Shown piece after piece: positions 1,966 through 37,457 of a stretch of 38,953 nucleotides of DNA; position 1 is the first letter of the stretch, and the number at the start of each line of letters is the position of its first letter. The translations under genes were made by a program, and so were the position numbers. Source of the DNA: Alphaproteobacteria bacterium. Its GTDB lineage: Bacteria; Pseudomonadota; Alphaproteobacteria; UBA9219. The stretch is taken from positions 1-38,953 of the forward strand of contig JAQVBU010000018.1 in NCBI GenBank assembly GCA_028690155.1. The letters are read 5' to 3'. The notes under the pieces are model-generated. The model saw only the letters and a program-made list of their open reading frames with translations. It did no database searches and was not told the DNA's origin.

Positions 1966-4900
1966 CTACTCTTTCTTATTTTTTTCAGATGGTTTGTCGT
2001 CACTTTTTTTGACCGCCGTATTGGCGATCAAAGGCGCGGCTTGGCGATAGCTGTTCAGGAATCCGCTGAACATATCGGTTTGGGAAAGCTGCGCTTGGGC
2101 GGCAGCAAGATTGCTCATCTGGCCCATGCTTTCCGGCTGGGTAAGCAAATCGAACATGTTGCTTTGCGCCTGCTGTTTCATGGTGTTGCCATAATCGCGG
2201 GCGAGGGCGCCGAGACAATCCTGATCGTCCAGCATGGCGCACGCGATGGCGGCGTTTAAAAGCCATGATGCTTTGTCGGGAGAAAGCGATTTGTTTTCGG
2301 GCGGCGGCGGGCCGACGAGCTCCATAAGAAGCGTGCTGGCAGTCTTCCACTGTTTGGCCTTCATGGCCAAATCGGCGCGAAGCAATAACGCGCCGGGGCT
2401 TGTGTTGTCCTTTAAAAGGGCGTCGACCTCGGCGGGTTGGTCCATTTCGGACAGCGCGCGGGCGCGTAGAAGCATGCGTTCGTTCTTGATGTCGTCCGGG
2501 ATAGGGTCTTTTCCGGTAAGAGCCAAAGCGTCGAGTGCTTGGGTCGGCTTATGATCCAAAAGGCGAATGGCGGCGAGGCGCGATATAGCCTCAAGACGGG
2601 CTTTTCCCTTCAGGCGGTTTTTCGCAAGGTCCTCCAACAGAATGGCCGCCTGATCCAGAAGATCAATCGAAACGAGGCGTTCGGCAAGACCGGCGACGAC
2701 GGCATCGCTTTCTTTGCCCGGAGGAAGAAGGTCGCGATACTGGTTATAAAGGGAGAGCGTGTCGAGCGGCGATAGCTGTTCGCCAAGCGTACCGATGAAA
2801 ATGTCGCGGAAGGTGGACTCCATCTCGGTGCGGATCAAGGGGACAAGGGGGCTCGAAGGGTAAAGCGTGGCGGCCTTGGCCAACGCGTTGATCCCGGCCT
2901 TGAGATTTTTGGCTTGGATGTAAAATTGGCCAAGGCGGCGAAGGATATCGACTTCCAGATCGTCGCCGCGCCAGCCGAAACGAAGCGCTTCAAGCCGATC
3001 GGCGGCATGGGCGGGGGTCAAAGAGCCTTCGGCGACGCCCAGATCAATCAGGGCCAGTTCGGCGCGAACGCTATAGAGCCTGTCTTGGGAGTTCTTGGCG
3101 AGGCGCCACGCTTCCTCGGCTTCTTGTGCCCGACCGGCCTTGGCGTCAAGGACGCCGCGCAGAAAGTTTAAGGCCGGATTGATCGACGCCGCATGGGGAG
3201 CGTTGAGAACGAAATGGAGCCAGTCGGCGGCTTCATAAGGCTGATCGGCGGCCAAAGCGGCTTCGATGGCAAGGACGAAGAAGCGCGAAAAGAAAGGCTC
3301 CGGATAGCCGGCCAAGATGCGTTCGGTCGATGTCAATTTTTCTTCCGCTTGCTTCCATGAGCGCAACTGGGCCAAGGCAATGCCTTGCCACAGCGTGATT
3401 TCAGGTTGTCCGGCCAGCCCTGGGGAGCTCAGATCGGCCAAGCCTTCCTCGGGGTGATAGGCCAAAATTTTCGAGGCCCCCAAAAGCGCAAGAAAATCCC
3501 CGTGAAAGCGAAGGTCCGGGACTTCATCGGCCAAGGCTTCTAAAAGGGCGGCGGCTTCCTCGCCCATGCCGTGGGCAAAATAGAACCGCGCCAATTCCAT
3601 CCGTGCGCGATTGCGCTCGGCCTCAGGCACGTCCACGATGGTTTGTTGAAGGCGCTGACGGGTTTGGGTAAAGGTCTCGCCCGGTTTTCCCGCCCACGTG
3701 GTGAAGTCGAAAATGGATTTTCCTTTCAAAGCGGCTTGGCTTTGAAGGTGTGAGCGTTTTTGGGCGCCGGTGTCTGAGGTGTCGGAGAGCAAAAGTCCCC
3801 CTTCTGCCGTAATCTCGATACCATCCGAGACGGCGCGGGCGATGATGGAATCAGACAACGGCTTGATGACCAATCCCTGTGCGGCTGGAAGGATCTCCAA
3901 ATCGACAGAGCGTCTTTCGACGTTGAACGCTTCGCTTTGCGCGAGGGGAACGAGGATCAGTGAATCGCCGACAACAGGATCCGTGATGCGAATCGGCTGA
4001 GTGCTGTCGGGAAGAGGCAGAAGGAGGCGCGCGCCCAGAGCGAAGTCGGGCTGTTCGACGAGTGTGGTGGTCACGGGCGGCGTTTGGTTTTTCTTGGAGA
4101 GGTAGATTTTCCACGCTGTGCCGTCGAGCGAGGCCAAAAGCGTGGCGTTTGAGGGGACGGCAAAACGGTACCCCGCGTTATGCGGTAAGGGGAAAGGGAC
4201 GATTTTAATCAAGGAAGAATGCCCGTTCAGAAGTTCCTCGGGCGATAGCGTCATTTTTTTATCAAAGACCACATAGCCGACCCCCGCGCGAAGATAAATG
4301 GCGGCGCGCGTCGCAACATGCGGATCAAGTGTGGCCACCAACATCGGCTTTTCGGTCAACACAAAGGAAAAGACGGCGGGTTTAGCGGGCCGATCAATCG
4401 TGAAATCGATGGGCGGCAGCGCAAGGGATTGTTCTTTTCCCTCTGCCGTCCGGGGGGCAAGAGCCGGTTTGACGTCGGCGTTCTCAACCTGTTGCTGTGG
4501 TACCGGTTTGTTTTCGCTAATCTTTTCGTCCGGAAGGCTTATGATAACATCGACTTTTTCGCGCGGGGAAGCCGTGACCCGAGGGGCGTCCACAGCCTTC
4601 TTTCCGCGTTGAGGGGGAGTCCCGACGAGCGAGGATCCCTCAATGTCGAGGACGACCGATGTTTCGTTGAAAAAGCTTTTGATCGAAGCCGAAGGATCGA
4701 TGCGAAAGGTTACGATAACGTAATCGCCCTCGGTTTTTGTTTCAAAATCCCGGGCGCGTGAAAGATTGTATCGTAAGTTTTTGGGATAAGCGATGTGCCC
4801 GGTTGCTTTGAAAAGAACCGAAACCGAGCCTCCGTTGCGCTGAACGTCGTAAAGAACCTTCTGGGGCCAGTCGAAAACAATGCGGTCGAAGGCGCGATGC

Positions 4901-5004
4901 GCGCCGACGCGGACCGTCACGACGGGGGCATTTTGTGCGGCCGCGCCATTAGGGTTAAAAAAGATAAACGCCAAGGCGGCAAGGAAGAGGATGCGTGTGC
5001 GCAT
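1966..5004 (-). CDS. Large exported TPR-type protein of unknown function
   Basis: This 1012-residue protein starts with a clear signal peptide (hydrophobic core about residues 5-17, AAAQ cleavage region near 24). Residues about 28-125 look beta-rich (VTVRVGAHRAFDRIVFDWP, then VVLDIEG), reminiscent of AMIN-like domains. A Pro/Lys/Glu-rich linker follows, then another beta-rich stretch. From about residue 480 to the end it is helical with TPR-like periodicity (for example ARMELARFYFAHGMGEEAAAL). The tail is Lys-rich. By architecture it is a periplasmic scaffold or envelope protein. I recall similar large TPR proteins in Rhodospirillales but do not know a function. It is transcribed alone and divergently from the DUF924 gene. 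Confidence 0.75.
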   Translation of the reverse strand: MRTRILFLAALAFIFFNPNGAAAQNAPVVTVRVGAHRAFDRIVFDWPQKVLYDVQRNGGSVSVLFKATGHIAYPKNLRYNLSRARDFETKTEGDYVIVTFRIDPSASIKSFFNETSVVLDIEGSSLVGTPPQRGKKAVDAPRVTASPREKVDVIISLPDEKISENKPVPQQQVENADVKPALAPRTAEGKEQSLALPPIDFTIDRPAKPAVFSFVLTEKPMLVATLDPHVATRAAIYLRAGVGYVVFDKKMTLSPEELLNGHSSLIKIVPFPLPHNAGYRFAVPSNATLLASLDGTAWKIYLSKKNQTPPVTTTLVEQPDFALGARLLLPLPDSTQPIRITDPVVGDSLILVPLAQSEAFNVERRSVDLEILPAAQGLVIKPLSDSIIARAVSDGIEITAEGGLLLSDTSDTGAQKRSHLQSQAALKGKSIFDFTTWAGKPGETFTQTRQRLQQTIVDVPEAERNRARMELARFYFAHGMGEEAAALLEALADEVPDLRFHGDFLALLGASKILAYHPEEGLADLSSPGLAGQPEITLWQGIALAQLRSWKQAEEKLTSTERILAGYPEPFFSRFFVLAIEAALAADQPYEAADWLHFVLNAPHAASINPALNFLRGVLDAKAGRAQEAEEAWRLAKNSQDRLYSVRAELALIDLGVAEGSLTPAHAADRLEALRFGWRGDDLEVDILRRLGQFYIQAKNLKAGINALAKAATLYPSSPLVPLIRTEMESTFRDIFIGTLGEQLSPLDTLSLYNQYRDLLPPGKESDAVVAGLAERLVSIDLLDQAAILLEDLAKNRLKGKARLEAISRLAAIRLLDHKPTQALDALALTGKDPIPDDIKNERMLLRARALSEMDQPAEVDALLKDNTSPGALLLRADLAMKAKQWKTASTLLMELVGPPPPENKSLSPDKASWLLNAAIACAMLDDQDCLGALARDYGNTMKQQAQSNMFDLLTQPESMGQMSNLAAAQAQLSQTDMFSGFLNSYRQAAPLIANTAVKKSDDKPSEKNKKE

Positions 5005-32522: not shown

Positions 32523-32669
32523 GTGCGTTCTCAATCGCTTGTTGCTGTTGCAGTCGGTTTTTTGTTATTACTCGTGGCCTGTGGGGCGTTATGGCTGTCG
32601 AACGCTCAGATTATGCCTTCGTCCGAGAAGGTGGAAATGGTCGTGCCCGATGAAAGGCTTCCTCGCTAG
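32523..32669 (+). CDS. Small lipoprotein-like membrane peptide, 48 residues
   Basis: This short gene was found by eye from a perfect Shine-Dalgarno AAGGAGG 7 nt before a GTG start at 32523. The product begins MRSQSLVAVAVGFLLLLVAC, a short charged start, a hydrophobic stretch and a lipobox-like LVAC with Cys20. A 28-residue mature part with an acidic/basic tail ending VVPDERLPR follows. It may be a tiny lipoprotein or a single-pass peptide. Its end overlaps the next gene start by 20 bp, so it is the first gene of the xerD-nadD-rsfS-rlmH operon. I know no function. Confidence 0.7.
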   Translation: MRSQSLVAVAVGFLLLLVACGALWLSNAQIMPSSEKVEMVVPDERLPR

Positions 32670-34404
32670 TCTCTGTGTTGTTCTTTTCGGGGCGGTCGCG
32701 GCGCGTGCGCAAGCCGCGGCGCCGACGGGGCCTGCGGTTGAACCGAAGCCTGTTGTCGAGGACAGGACGGTTGTGACGGCGCCTCTTCCGGAAGGGCTTG
32801 CCGCCTTATCCGCTGATCTTGCGATTACGCCCGTGTCGATGGACACGCTGCCTTTTGTGAGCCGGGAGTCGGTGGGCGTACAAGACGCGACGAGTCTCGG
32901 CGTCTCGATGTGGCGCGGCACACGGCGTCCGGTGGCACAGTTTTTGATGGACCAAGCGCGTCCGACGGCCTCGCCTGTGTTGAATGATCTTGTGTTGCGC
33001 GTGCTCGAAACCGCGGCCGTTCCGCCCGAGGGGACGGAAGAAAAGGGCGGGAACAGCCTTGTCGCGTCGCGCGTAAGGGCTCTTGTGCGTTTTGGCAAGG
33101 CAAACGAGGCGTTGGCGCTGGCGCGCCAAGCGGATCCGACGCTTGTCGACGGAGCGATGGCCCGCATGGCGGTTGAGAACGCTTTTTTGACCGGCGATGT
33201 GTCCGGATGCCGGACCCCGGCAACTTTGGTCAAAGCCTACCCTAAGGAAAACTGGCAGAAGTTTCTTATCCTGTGTCATTTGCAAGCGAACGACAGGCAT
33301 GCGGCTCAGGTGGCCTTGGATGTGTTGCGTACGGAAAGCAAGGCCAATAAAGATGACCTGTTCTTGACGGTGGCGGAAAAGAATGTGTTGGGGGACAATC
33401 GCGCGCTCCCTCTTAAAATCGATCCTCAGCGCGCCGACCTTTTGGGCTTGATGCAGATGGCGGGCTTTCCTGTATCGCGGACGCTTTTTGCGCAGGCGGA
33501 GCCGGCGCGTGCGCGCGCCTTTTTGCGCATACCGGGACAACGGGACGATCAACGTTTGGCGTTGGCCGAGCGGGCGGCCGAAAGCGGTATGCTCAGCCCC
33601 GAGGAATTGGGCGAAGTCTATGCGTCGGTGTCTTTCCCCGCTGCCGCGTTGGCGGCACCGTTGGTGACGACCGAGAAAGGCTCGTCGTTACGGGCGCTTT
33701 TGTATCAAGCTTCGGTGGCACAACCGAACGCCGCGCTTAAGGTTGCGCTGGCAACGCGTTTTGTCGCATCCTCCGATGCGGCCTTTTTGAATGGTGCCGG
33801 CGCGCTCTTGTGGGCCATGCTGGGGCCGATACCGGTTGACGAAACGTTGGCGGAGAAGGCCGTTCCGCTTGCCCACCTTTACATGCTGGCGGGCAAACCC
33901 GACGTGGCCAAAGCTTGGCTTGAGGAAGCGCGGCGCACAAACCATGGCGCGGCCGAGCGCGACGCGTTATGGCCGGCGTTTGTTTTGTCGGGGTTGGAGG
34001 CCGGGGACGGCCCGGCTTTTTCGGAAGCCTTCGACGCATGGTTTGAGCCAAAATTGAAGGCAGCGGACAAGCAAACGCTTCGCAAGGATCTTGCGCCGAC
34101 GCTGCTTATTCTCGAAGCGGCCGGAAAGCCGGTTCCCGACACGGCGTGGGCCAAGATTCTGGCCAAGAGCCAGCTTTGGGAAAAAGAAAAAGCCTCGCCG
34201 CTTGGCATCGCGCGGTTGCGCCATGCGGCGGCGGACGCGCGGCGCGCCGAGACGGTTTTGTGGGCGGCGCGTCTTGCGGCTGAATCGCCGTCGTCTCTGT
34301 CCGTATCGTTGGAGATTATACGGGCCCTTCGGCAGGTGGGGCTTGGCGACGACGCGGCGGTTTTTGCGCGGCACGGCGCCGCTCTTCTTGCCGAGGCGTC
34401 TTAA
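32650..34404 (+). CDS. Exported helical-repeat protein of unknown function
   Basis: The 584-residue protein begins with a signal peptide (MKGFLASLCVVLFGAVAARAQA, cleavage near 21). A Pro-rich stretch follows, and then long helical arrays with Ala/Leu periodicity like TPR or solenoid proteins (VRFGKANEALALARQADPTL; PLAHLYMLAGKPDVAKAWLEEA). There is no catalytic motif. A protein of this type between aroK and xerD is a neighbourhood I recall from Rhodospirillales, where it is unnamed. ATG 32650 is chosen because the signal peptide starts there; the open frame upstream belongs to the small gene region. Its stop overlaps the xerD start (TAATG). Confidence 0.75.
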   Translation: MKGFLASLCVVLFGAVAARAQAAAPTGPAVEPKPVVEDRTVVTAPLPEGLAALSADLAITPVSMDTLPFVSRESVGVQDATSLGVSMWRGTRRPVAQFLMDQARPTASPVLNDLVLRVLETAAVPPEGTEEKGGNSLVASRVRALVRFGKANEALALARQADPTLVDGAMARMAVENAFLTGDVSGCRTPATLVKAYPKENWQKFLILCHLQANDRHAAQVALDVLRTESKANKDDLFLTVAEKNVLGDNRALPLKIDPQRADLLGLMQMAGFPVSRTLFAQAEPARARAFLRIPGQRDDQRLALAERAAESGMLSPEELGEVYASVSFPAAALAAPLVTTEKGSSLRALLYQASVAQPNAALKVALATRFVASSDAAFLNGAGALLWAMLGPIPVDETLAEKAVPLAHLYMLAGKPDVAKAWLEEARRTNHGAAERDALWPAFVLSGLEAGDGPAFSEAFDAWFEPKLKAADKQTLRKDLAPTLLILEAAGKPVPDTAWAKILAKSQLWEKEKASPLGIARLRHAAADARRAETVLWAARLAAESPSSLSVSLEIIRALRQVGLGDDAAVFARHGAALLAEAS

Positions 34405-35348
34405 TGCGCAAAGATTCCGCGACCCCTTTTCACGGCATGGTGGGCGCTTTTTTGGACATGATGCGTGCCGAGAGGAATGCGTCGCTCAATACGTGCGCGG
34501 CTTACGCGCGCGACCTCGAAAACGCGGCGTTATTTCTAGCGCGTCGCCGTACCGATTTGGCCGACGCGCGTGAAGACGATTTGCGTGCCTACCTTCAGTC
34601 GCAACGATCCTTTGCCCCGCGCACGCAGGCGCGACGGTTGTCGTCGCTCAAGCAGTTTTACCGTTTTTTGTGTTCCGAGAAATACCGGGCCGAGGATCCG
34701 ACCCGCGCCTTGGACGCGCCCAAAATGGGGCGCGCGCTCCCAAAATATCTGAGCGAGAAGGACGTGCGGGCGTTATTGAAAGCGGCGGCGTCCCATCCGG
34801 GAGACGAGGGTGTGAGGCTTCGGGCGATGGTTGAACTTGTGTACGCGTCGGGGCTTCGAGTCAGCGAGCTTATGGGGTTGCCTGTTTCGGGGGTGTTGTT
34901 TGACCGGTGCGTGGTTCTTGTACGCGGCAAAGGCGACAAGGAGCGTATGGTCCCGCTTGGCGAGCCGGCGATCGAGGCGCTTAAAGCATGGCTGCCTGTG
35001 CGCAAAGGCTGGCTAGGGGAAAGGGCGTCGCCCTATCTTTTTCCGTCTTTTTCGTCGCGGCGCGCGGCGCCGATGACCCGGCAACGTTTCTTTCAGATTT
35101 TGAAGGCGCTTGCGTGTACAGCAGGCCTCGATCCGCGGCGGCTTAGCCCCCACGTGATTCGCCATGCGTTTGCCACGCACCTGATCGAACACGGTGCGGA
35201 TTTGCGAAGCGTGCAAAGCATGCTGGGGCATGCGGATATTGCGACGACGCAAATTTATACCCATCTGGCGAACGACAAGTTGGCCCGGACGCTTGCCGAG
35301 CACCATCCCTTGGCGCAAGCAAGGCTTGGAAAGGGAGGGGGGTCATGA
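34404..35348 (+). CDS. xerD: Tyrosine recombinase XerD
   Basis: XerD acts with XerC at dif to resolve chromosome dimers under FtsK control. The 314-residue protein has the N-terminal SAM-like core-binding domain (about 8-95). The catalytic set is complete: R152 in ASGLRVSEL, K176 in GKGDKE, H251 and R254 in HVIRHAFATHL, H277 in LGHADIATTQIY, and nucleophile Y285. Size and C-terminal ending (LARTLAEHHPLA) fit XerD rather than a phage integrase. It overlaps the preceding stop by one base and the following nadD start by four. Confidence 0.93.
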   Translation: MRKDSATPFHGMVGAFLDMMRAERNASLNTCAAYARDLENAALFLARRRTDLADAREDDLRAYLQSQRSFAPRTQARRLSSLKQFYRFLCSEKYRAEDPTRALDAPKMGRALPKYLSEKDVRALLKAAASHPGDEGVRLRAMVELVYASGLRVSELMGLPVSGVLFDRCVVLVRGKGDKERMVPLGEPAIEALKAWLPVRKGWLGERASPYLFPSFSSRRAAPMTRQRFFQILKALACTAGLDPRRLSPHVIRHAFATHLIEHGADLRSVQSMLGHADIATTQIYTHLANDKLARTLAEHHPLAQARLGKGGGS

Positions 35349-35965
35349 TCGTTCCTCACCCGCGCAATGGACAGACGTTTCGAGGCATGAGGATCGGCCT
35401 GTTGGGGGGATCCTTTAATCCGGCGCACGAGGGGCATCGGGCTATGAGTCTCCACGCGCTCAAAGCGCTGGGGTTGGATCAGGTTTGGTGGCTTGTTTGC
35501 CCTCAAAATCCTTTGAAGGACAAGGAGGAGATGGCGTCGCTGGCCAAGAGATTGGTGCGAGCGGAGCGGTTTGCGCGGCATCCCCGGTTTGTGGTGACGG
35601 CGATCGAAGCGGCCTTGGGTACGACGGCGACGGTTGATACGTTGCGCCAGCTCAAGAAACGGTTTCCGGGCGTGACGTTTATCTGGCTTATGGGGGCGGA
35701 TAACCTTAGACAGATTCCGAAGTGGCAAAAATGGACCGAGATTTTTCGTCTTGTTCCTGTTGCCGTTTTTCGCCGACCCTCGTATCCTGCCGGTAAAGGG
35801 TTGGGGTTGGCCGCGATAAGGTTTGACGCGGGATGGGCCCCTTCCTTAAAGGCAGGCGCGTTGGCGCGGCAAACCGGGGATCAAACACCGGCATGGACTA
35901 TGCTTGATAACGAACTGAACGAGACATCGGCGACAGAAATCAGAAAGGATAACCCGTGGTGGTGA
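35345..35965 (+). CDS. nadD: Nicotinate-nucleotide adenylyltransferase NadD
   Basis: NadD adenylates nicotinate mononucleotide in NAD synthesis. The 206-residue protein has GGSFNPAHEGHR (21-32; the HxGH nucleotidyltransferase motif), WLMGADNLRQIPKW, and the C-terminal SATEIRK that replaces the usual SST-x-IR. The ATG overlaps the xerD stop (ATGA). ATG 35387, which would begin MRIGLLGG, is an alternative start and would remove a 14-residue non-conserved leader. Its end overlaps the rsfS start by 10 bp, the common nadD-rsfS-rlmH order. Confidence 0.95.
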   Translation: MIVPHPRNGQTFRGMRIGLLGGSFNPAHEGHRAMSLHALKALGLDQVWWLVCPQNPLKDKEEMASLAKRLVRAERFARHPRFVVTAIEAALGTTATVDTLRQLKKRFPGVTFIWLMGADNLRQIPKWQKWTEIFRLVPVAVFRRPSYPAGKGLGLAAIRFDAGWAPSLKAGALARQTGDQTPAWTMLDNELNETSATEIRKDNPWW

Positions 35966-36993
35966 AAGCAGCGAAGAAGACTGTCAAAAAGACGGCAAAG
36001 GTCAAAAAGGCAGCAAAGAAGGTCGTGACGAAGAAAGCGTCGGCCACAAAGCCCCTCAAGGGACCTGCCGCAGCGCGTAAAAAGACCGTTAAAAAGGCAT
36101 CAGCCCCCCCGCGCGCCGCGAAGAAAACGCGGACGCCTAAGAAGGCCGGGGCAAAGGCAATGAAAAAGACGGCCCTTAAAAAGGCCGCGACGAAAACGGT
36201 CAAGAAAGTCGCCAAGAAAGCGGCCGTCAAAAAGGCCGTGAAGAAAGCGGCGCCCAAGAAGCTCAAGAAACTCGTCAAGAAGACGACGAAGGCCGCGACG
36301 AAAACGGTCAAGAAAGTCGCCAAGAAAGCGGCCGTTAAAAAAGCCGTGAAGAAAACGGCGCCCAAGAAACCCAAGAAAGTCGTCAAGAAAAAGACGAAAG
36401 CGGCGACGAAAACGGTCAAGAAAGTTGCGAAGAAAGCGGCCGTCAAAAAGGCCCCAAAGAAAGCGCTTAAGAAAGCACCCGTAAAAAAGGAAGCCGTACG
36501 TCGCGCGGCAACCCCCAAGGCCCCGCGTGCCGTCGACTTTGTGTCGGAAAAAACGGTTCCTGTTCAGGCTCAGCCTAAGGCGGCGGCCGCTGAGGATGTG
36601 TTGCCCCTTTTTGCCGGGGTCGATTTTGAGCAAGACCGCGAGGTTGTCGCGGCTGCGGATTTCCCGGAGAAGCTTCTGGAAACGGTTCAGAAAATCTTGG
36701 ACGAACGCAAGGCCGAAGACATCGTAACGGTCGCTCTTGCGGGGCGCAGCGCCTTGGCGGACTATATGGTGATTGCGTCGGGCCAGTCGGGACGGCAACT
36801 TCTGGCGTTGGCGGACTATTTGGACGAAGCGTTCCGCAAGGCGGGCGTCGTGAATGTTCGCATTGAAGGAAAGACCGACGCCAATTGGGTCCTTGTGGAT
36901 GCGGGCGATGTGATCGTTCACCTGTTTTTGCCCGACGTTCGAGCGTATTACGATCTGGACACACTGTGGAGCAAAAGCCCCGAGGCCGAGTGA
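35956..36993 (+). CDS. rsfS: Ribosome silencing factor RsfS with long histone-H1-like N-terminal extension
   Basis: RsfS binds uL14 on the 50S subunit and blocks joining of subunits when nutrients are short. The domain occupies residues about 234-340 (KAEDIVTVAL, ADYMVIASGQSGRQ, ANWVLVDAGDVIVHLF, YYDLDTLW). It is preceded by about 180 residues made almost only of Lys, Ala, Val, Thr and Pro (KKVAKKAAVKKA-type), including a 36-residue unit at 78-113, 114-149 and 150 to about 177, then a linker. Normal RsfS has about 105-150 residues. The frame is continuous, with AAGGA 6 nt before GTG 35956. The tail resembles AlgP/Hc1-type DNA-binding tails; binding RNA or DNA is inferred. Confidence 0.92.
   Translation: MVVKAAKKTVKKTAKVKKAAKKVVTKKASATKPLKGPAAARKKTVKKASAPPRAAKKTRTPKKAGAKAMKKTALKKAATKTVKKVAKKAAVKKAVKKAAPKKLKKLVKKTTKAATKTVKKVAKKAAVKKAVKKTAPKKPKKVVKKKTKAATKTVKKVAKKAAVKKAPKKALKKAPVKKEAVRRAATPKAPRAVDFVSEKTVPVQAQPKAAAAEDVLPLFAGVDFEQDREVVAAADFPEKLLETVQKILDERKAEDIVTVALAGRSALADYMVIASGQSGRQLLALADYLDEAFRKAGVVNVRIEGKTDANWVLVDAGDVIVHLFLPDVRAYYDLDTLWSKSPEAE
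36187..36486 (+). repeat. 108-bp coding tandem repeat in rsfS
   Basis: Units begin at 36187, 36295 and 36403, an exact 108-bp (36-codon) period; the third is incomplete. The first 40 bases of each are nearly identical, and the rest differs by substitutions such as AAG/AAA and Ala/Thr changes. Strain-to-strain length changes by slippage or recombination are likely. Confidence 0.9.
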
Positions 36994-37457
36994 AGACGCT
37001 TATCCTTGCTATCGGCAAGCTGCGCGGTCCTGAGGCCGCATGGTGCGACGAATACCTGAAACGTTTAGGCAAGACGGTCGAGGTTCGGGCGTTTACGGTC
37101 TCAAGCTCTCTGCCGCCTCTTGAGGCGCAGAAAGCCGAGGCGCAGCTTTTGCTGAAAGCGATTCCGGAAAAAAGCTTTGTGGTGCTGTTGGACGAACGCG
37201 GGCGCACGCTGACCAGCCCCGATTTGGCAAACAAGCTGACGCAATGGCACGCGCGCGGCACGGTGACCTTTATCATCGGCGGGCCGGACGGCGTGACGGA
37301 AGAGATCAAAACGCGCGCCGATTTTACGATGTGTTTTGGCGCGATGACGTGGCCGCATAAGCTGGCGCGCGTGATGTTGTTGGAGCAACTCTACCGGGCG
37401 CAACAGATTCAGGCGGGCCATCCCTATCATCGAAGCGGCCTCGGAAGCGATCCTTGA
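36990..37457 (+). CDS. rlmH: 23S rRNA (pseudouridine1915-N3)-methyltransferase RlmH
   Basis: RlmH is a SPOUT methyltransferase that modifies pseudouridine 1915 in helix 69 of 23S rRNA in 70S ribosomes. The 155-residue protein has the family length and motifs: LDERGRTLTSPDLA, FIIGGPDG (94-101), FGAMTWPHKLARVMLLEQLYRA and the C-terminal PYHR (145-148). The GTG start lies in the rsfS stop (GTGA). It is the last gene of the operon that starts at 32523. In staphylococci the 3' end of rlmH is the SCC integration site; a decayed second 3' fragment lies at 38878-38953. Confidence 0.96.
   Translation: MKTLILAIGKLRGPEAAWCDEYLKRLGKTVEVRAFTVSSSLPPLEAQKAEAQLLLKAIPEKSFVVLLDERGRTLTSPDLANKLTQWHARGTVTFIIGGPDGVTEEIKTRADFTMCFGAMTWPHKLARVMLLEQLYRAQQIQAGHPYHRSGLGSDP

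Follow-up and report, generated by a model that had tools for sequence, protein, structure and literature searches.

What would a ribosome silencing factor do with a long polycationic tail? Few ribosome-silencing factors are as widely conserved as RsfS, which is regarded as a small uL14-binding domain. In the stretch of alphaproteobacterial DNA analyzed here (38,953 nucleotides; hereafter the window), rsfS carries a Lys/Ala-rich N-terminal extension (35956 to 36993, forward strand, 345 aa, GTG start). We asked whether the extension is translated and selected, how widely it occurs, and what it may bind.

The rsfS gene and its neighborhood

An earlier note on this DNA had read Lys/Ala-rich repeats and a canonical RsfS domain in one frame, and the profile search agrees: 35956 to 36993 is a single open frame without an internal stop, in which TIGR00090 matches residues 241-338 at 106.8 bits (cut-off 56.9) and PF02410 matches residues 243-338 at 104.2 bits (cut-off 21.6). 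The domain spans residues 239-341 (36670 to 36978, forward strand); the earlier note had given 234-340. Passages of PMC9503621 report that E70, W77, D81, and Y98 of Staphylococcus aureus RsfS touch uL14, and that E70A and Y98A weaken its anti-association activity. These four residues correspond to E304, W311, D315, and Y332 of the window protein, with the numbering taken from equal-length matched ranges to 6sj6, and they are invariant in all 34 members of the order. The genome's own uL14 (L176) retains the GTRIFG and FMKIIS stretches, which we take to be those holding T97, R98, and K114 of Escherichia coli. The best explanation of this sequence evidence is that the window protein is a working RsfS with its uL14-contact residues intact. 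In one further motif the window differs from most of its relatives: FRPEVR reads FLPDVR, with L325 (36928-36930) where 32 of the 34 order members have Arg.

Upstream of rsfS lies a nadD-like gene (CTP_transf_like, 35345 to 35965, forward strand), whose stop overlaps the rsfS start, a feature absent from the earlier note; downstream, the GTG of an rlmH-like SPOUT methyltransferase gene (36990 to 37457, forward strand) overlaps the rsfS stop. The names nadD and rlmH are our presumption from the families matched. Across 34404-37457, Integrase/XerC-like, nadD-like, rsfS, and rlmH-like genes stand in a row with overlapping starts and stops, and these overlaps suggest that their translation may be coupled. 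Elsewhere in the window, frames of 1,012 aa (1966-5004, reverse strand) and 621 aa (32539-34404, forward strand) have no Pfam match at E 1e-5.

Composition of the tail

The Lys/Ala-rich tail covers residues 1-190 (35956 to 36525, forward strand), about 190 residues rather than the roughly 180 given previously. It contains 74 K, 5 R, 45 A, 24 V, 19 T, 12 P, and a single acidic residue, for a charge of about +77 and a pI of 12, with Lys far commoner than Arg. Within it, a repeat search found a 108-nt (36-aa) unit that recurs in tandem, with 2.5 copies in all (36181 to 36453, forward strand). Also missing from the earlier note is an acidic linker of about 48 residues that follows the tail (residues 191-238, 36526 to 36669, forward strand; charge about -5 over residues 191-240); residues 241-345 are acidic as well, with a charge of about -7. 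We judge from its composition that the tail is probably disordered.

To gauge how unusual this composition is, we counted Lys in the best 40 residues of 2,724 frames of at least 50 aa, taken from 249,733 bases that amount to about 12% of the genome (the window plus 20 stretches). The tail has 19, and the runner-up frame 10; the Lys/Ala tail is more than chance. AT-rich drift was considered as the source of the Lys and rejected: Lys content barely tracks the G+C of the locus (r = -0.28).

Translation and selection

If translation began only at an internal start near the domain, as the earlier note allowed, the tail might never be made. The start region argues otherwise. A Shine-Dalgarno-like AAGGA (35945 to 35949, forward strand) lies 6 nt before the first GTG. 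Among order members, 28 of 33 have a start codon at the edge of the tail with a Shine-Dalgarno motif at 4-13 nt, against a background, in a count that ignores kinship, of 1,172 of 5,737 start-like triplets at the same loci. Later in-frame start codons inside the tails are preceded by such a motif in 45 of 120 cases, so that additional short forms are possible; candidates in the window are the ATG at 36160, with AAGG 2 nt upstream, and the TTG at 36601, with AGGA 4 nt upstream. These starts are what speaks for mainly internal initiation, in which a short RsfS would be made from within or after the tail. We consider it highly improbable, because the best motif in the window precedes the first GTGs and because a tail that was not made would give selection on its residues nothing to act on.

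Several comparisons indicate such selection. Compared over 19 codons, the third copy of the repeat in the window shows 4 synonymous changes against copy 1 and 6 against copy 2, and no nonsynonymous change against either; copies 1 and 2, compared over 36 codons, have 4 changes of each kind. Between two close relatives, L037 and L038, the rsfS tail was compared over 125 codons, of which 49 differ synonymously and 22 nonsynonymously (dN 0.118, dS 1.76, from a single pair in which the repeat alignment is uncertain). The corresponding synonymous and nonsynonymous counts are 32 and 7 of 110 codons for the RsfS domain and 22 and 21 of 215 codons for nadD. The tail thus looks to be under selection, and the Shine-Dalgarno-preceded start at its edge, together with the mostly synonymous differences, favors translation of the long form.

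What is retained appears to be charge rather than sequence. Across 33 order genomes, the distance from start to domain ranges from 36 to 238 residues (median 80) and the net charge in between from +9 to +72; the shortest tail has about 36 residues. This variability in length, the unconserved sequence, and the tandem repeat in the window would also be expected of a tolerated low-complexity expansion, in which slippage-grown repeats yield a tail that does little. Such an origin without function is nevertheless very unlikely, given a tail in all 34 genomes at loci of 43-65% G+C, the synonymous bias, the retained start and Shine-Dalgarno motif, and comparable tails in eight other families.

Distribution of tailed RsfS

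The search for basic extensions on RsfS in related genomes, proposed in the earlier note, found them throughout the order. RsfS is present in all 34 genomes of the order (15 genera, three families), and every one has a Lys-rich stretch in frame before the domain, in which Lys makes up 0.28 to 0.47 of the best 40 residues, measured from the preceding stop codon. One of the 34 loci, L049, ends at a contig end. Of 96 RsfS loci from outside the order in a first comparison, two reached 0.28 K, and the next highest had 0.17.

Among the matches listed, at least 200 of the 212 class genomes searched have RsfS. We then took a wider sample of the 30 best-scoring loci and 60 picked mostly for long frames, which biases it toward long frames. 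A fraction of at least 0.25 K was found in 11 of 101 unnamed class genomes outside the order, in eight families, and in 1 of 80 named genomes (distinct domains, with the same long-frame bias). Counted as distinct loci outside the order, 12 of 180 have a comparable stretch, again measured from the preceding stop in the long-frame-biased sample; some of these are marginal, at 0.25-0.28 K, and their upstream frame may be partly untranslated. By these sequence counts the tail is fixed in one order and scattered among other families of the class. In a tree of the RsfS domain, built on few columns, the order's rows need two changes, which is compatible with a single origin.

We also considered the tail as a substitute for lost hibernation factors; this was rejected, as HPF-type S30AE is present in 32 of the 34 order genomes. 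A separate peculiarity was seen in G004, where RsfS (L039) has a basic tail and, at its C-terminus, about 47 extra residues that are acidic.

Comparison with known proteins

The window protein shares with RsfS / YbeB / iojap (PF02410, TIGR00090) a domain above both cut-offs, the uL14-contact residues, and the nadD-like and rlmH-like flanks. The compact single-domain form is usual, although not defining, for this family: RsfS in the matched solved bacterial chains has 105-152 aa, whereas the window protein has 345 aa and departs through its 190-residue, +77 tail. MALSU1, the mitochondrial RsfS homologue, has a homologous domain (54.8 bits to 5ool_u) and is also N-terminally extended, its match starting at residue 90 of 234. 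The tail differs from that extension, which includes a targeting sequence and is not a Lys/Ala repeat.

The likeness to AlgP and Hc1 claimed in the earlier note stands as regards composition but not as regards family membership. Hc1 (PF07432) has no matches in the genome at E 0.01, and HC2 (PF07382; cut-off 40 bits) has none in the window protein at E 0.01 or in the genome at E 0.001. Among the relatives whose tails exceed the HC2 cut-off are L037, at 71.9 bits, and L039, at 44.4 bits. As described in portions of PMC2848022, Hc2 and BpH1 resemble the tail in their Lys/Ala/Val/Thr repeats, in changing length by in-frame duplication, and in a 36-aa unit; the 36-aa (108-bp) repeat elements of Hc2 duplicate and delete in frame. 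Hc2 and BpH1 are free nucleoproteins, unlike the tail, which is fused to RsfS. In AlgP and PhaF of Pseudomonas, too, a separate domain carries a disordered tail that is basic and rich in Lys and Ala, according to excerpts of PMC9239181. Their tail is C-terminal, built of KPAA units, and attached to a helical or granule-binding domain rather than to a ribosome factor; that of the window is N-terminal and built of KK-spaced Ala/Val/Thr units.

Sequence search with the tail itself was of little use. As a BLAST query it recovered the rsfS tails in 0 of the 33 other order genomes, and since it misses the order's own tails, its lack of matches elsewhere means nothing. HU proteins were examined as further tailed nucleoid proteins and set aside, the genome's three HU-family matches (frames of 98-113 aa) having no such tail.

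The earlier note knew of no described RsfS with such a tail, and we likewise found none in a search of mostly open-access literature, including passages of PMC3400551, with subscription journals mostly outside its scope. The RsfS domain family is known, and the tailed architecture is a new form of it.

Function of the tail

With moderate confidence, we propose that RsfS docks on uL14 while its polycationic tail binds nucleic acid close by and so serves as an anchor on the 50S. The target that we infer as likeliest is rRNA belonging to the same subunit. The domain would dock on uL14 of the 50S and block subunit joining, as in other bacteria. In the structure covered by sections of PMC7125091, RsfS occupies a cavity of uL14, bL19, and helix 95 of 23S rRNA. 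Because this site borders helix 95, the tail would be delivered beside rRNA and meet rRNA first. There it would grip adjacent nucleic-acid phosphates through multivalent charge, keeping RsfS on the 50S. That charge is conserved and sequence is not, and that no tail is shorter than about 36 residues, fits such a multivalent local anchor, and longer tails could reach further; the longest, that of the window among them, could also bridge to a second subunit or to DNA, clustering silenced subunits.

Some findings count against an rRNA anchor. Lys is preferred over Arg, and the relatives' tails that exceed the HC2 cut-off look more like DNA-packing proteins. In addition, the Lys/Ala module occurs without RsfS, as a reading frame lacking the domain and as a Lys-rich N-terminus on an AhpC/TSA protein (G028), and is therefore not tied to ribosomes. 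The same findings bear on the main rival, in which a DNA-binding tail, as in AlgP/PhaF or Hc2, would hold silenced 50S subunits at the nucleoid or help compact DNA in starvation. A nucleoid tether of this kind would account for the histone-H1-like composition and the Lys preference, for the HC2 matches in many order genomes, most of them at nadD-rsfS, and for the RsfS-free Lys/Ala frame that stands beside rsfS in every genome of one genus (both detailed below). Parts of PMC9239181 state that C-terminal peptides of AlgP bind DNA and that the homologous tail of PhaF is thought to tether granules to the nucleoid, and the repeat elements of Hc2 described in PMC2848022 share the period of the window repeat, which may be coincidence. 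However, the RsfS domain puts the tail at the 50S, short tails of 36-50 residues would hardly be able to bridge to DNA, and the window's own genome has neither an HC2 nor an Hc1 match. We regard the tether as possible but rather unlikely.

Binding to polyphosphate, which would tie RsfS to a polymer made in starvation, is suggested by AlgP, whose similar tail associates with polyphosphate granules in the account excerpted from PMC9239181. A search limited to the profile of Polyphosphate kinase 1 (PPK1, PF02503) gave matches in 9 of the 34 order genomes and in none of the 11 of the window's genus, its own genome included, which makes polyphosphate an extremely improbable target.

Returning to the rRNA anchor, we considered whether the tail compensates for lost rRNA-contact charge in the domain. 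This idea found no clear support: sites matching S. aureus Q49, R53, and K56 do not separate tailed from tail-less proteins. Relative to tail-less RsfS, the order has a slightly lower helix charge (0.73 versus 1.48) and a less acidic domain as a whole (-2.0 versus -4.7), in a comparison that ignores kinship. The occurrence of the tail on RsfS throughout one order, with similar tails in other families, suggests that factors of this kind can acquire nucleic-acid binding as an added function. Versions of RsfS with and without the tail could show in a simple way whether dormant ribosomes are anchored, gathered in clusters, or attached to the nucleoid.

Lys/Ala modules at the nadD-rsfS junction and elsewhere

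The earlier note had also considered that the basic region might be a separate gene in relatives. It is in frame with RsfS in all 34 genomes; in one sister genus, g2, all six genomes (G011, G019, G021, G022, G023, and G024) have an additional Lys/Ala stretch between nadD and rsfS. Here the nadD frame runs free of stops into a Lys/Ala stretch of 56-84 codons. This stretch opens with an ATG of its own, with AAGGAG upstream, and a terminator-like hairpin with a T run comes after it. This arrangement is found on the forward strand at L037 426-1301, L026 185-1090, L020 164-1252, and L283 518-1381, and also at L038 and L029. Downstream follows rsfS with a tail of its own; in G023 the RsfS domain is on another contig and just the start of the tail is visible. 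Over 69 codons, the extra stretch shows 13 synonymous and 2 nonsynonymous differences between L037 and L038. In this genus, then, a basic tail may end NadD, an inner start may yield a free H1-like protein, or both.

The HC2 profile gives 26 rows in 22 of the 34 order genomes, above the cut-off in 9, and misses the other 12, the window's included, so that it is no complete census. The nadD-rsfS junction accounts for 23 of these rows, and the remaining 3 are at other sites, in G031, G017, and G028; by this measure the Lys/Ala module is concentrated at the locus but not confined to it. One could go further and picture the junction as the cradle of a histone-H1-like protein, with a tail on RsfS throughout the order and, in one genus, a second module as NadD C-terminus and free basic protein, the two jointly condensing silenced 50S subunits and DNA in starvation and so coupling silencing to nucleoid packing. 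We think this distinctly unlikely.

Two of the occurrences away from the junction can be described individually. In G031, a Lys-rich frame of 152 aa (L277 1207-1662, forward strand) has a weak HC2 match alone. In G028, an AhpC/TSA peroxiredoxin-like protein (L282 1048-1773, reverse strand) carries its Lys-rich tail at the N-terminus.
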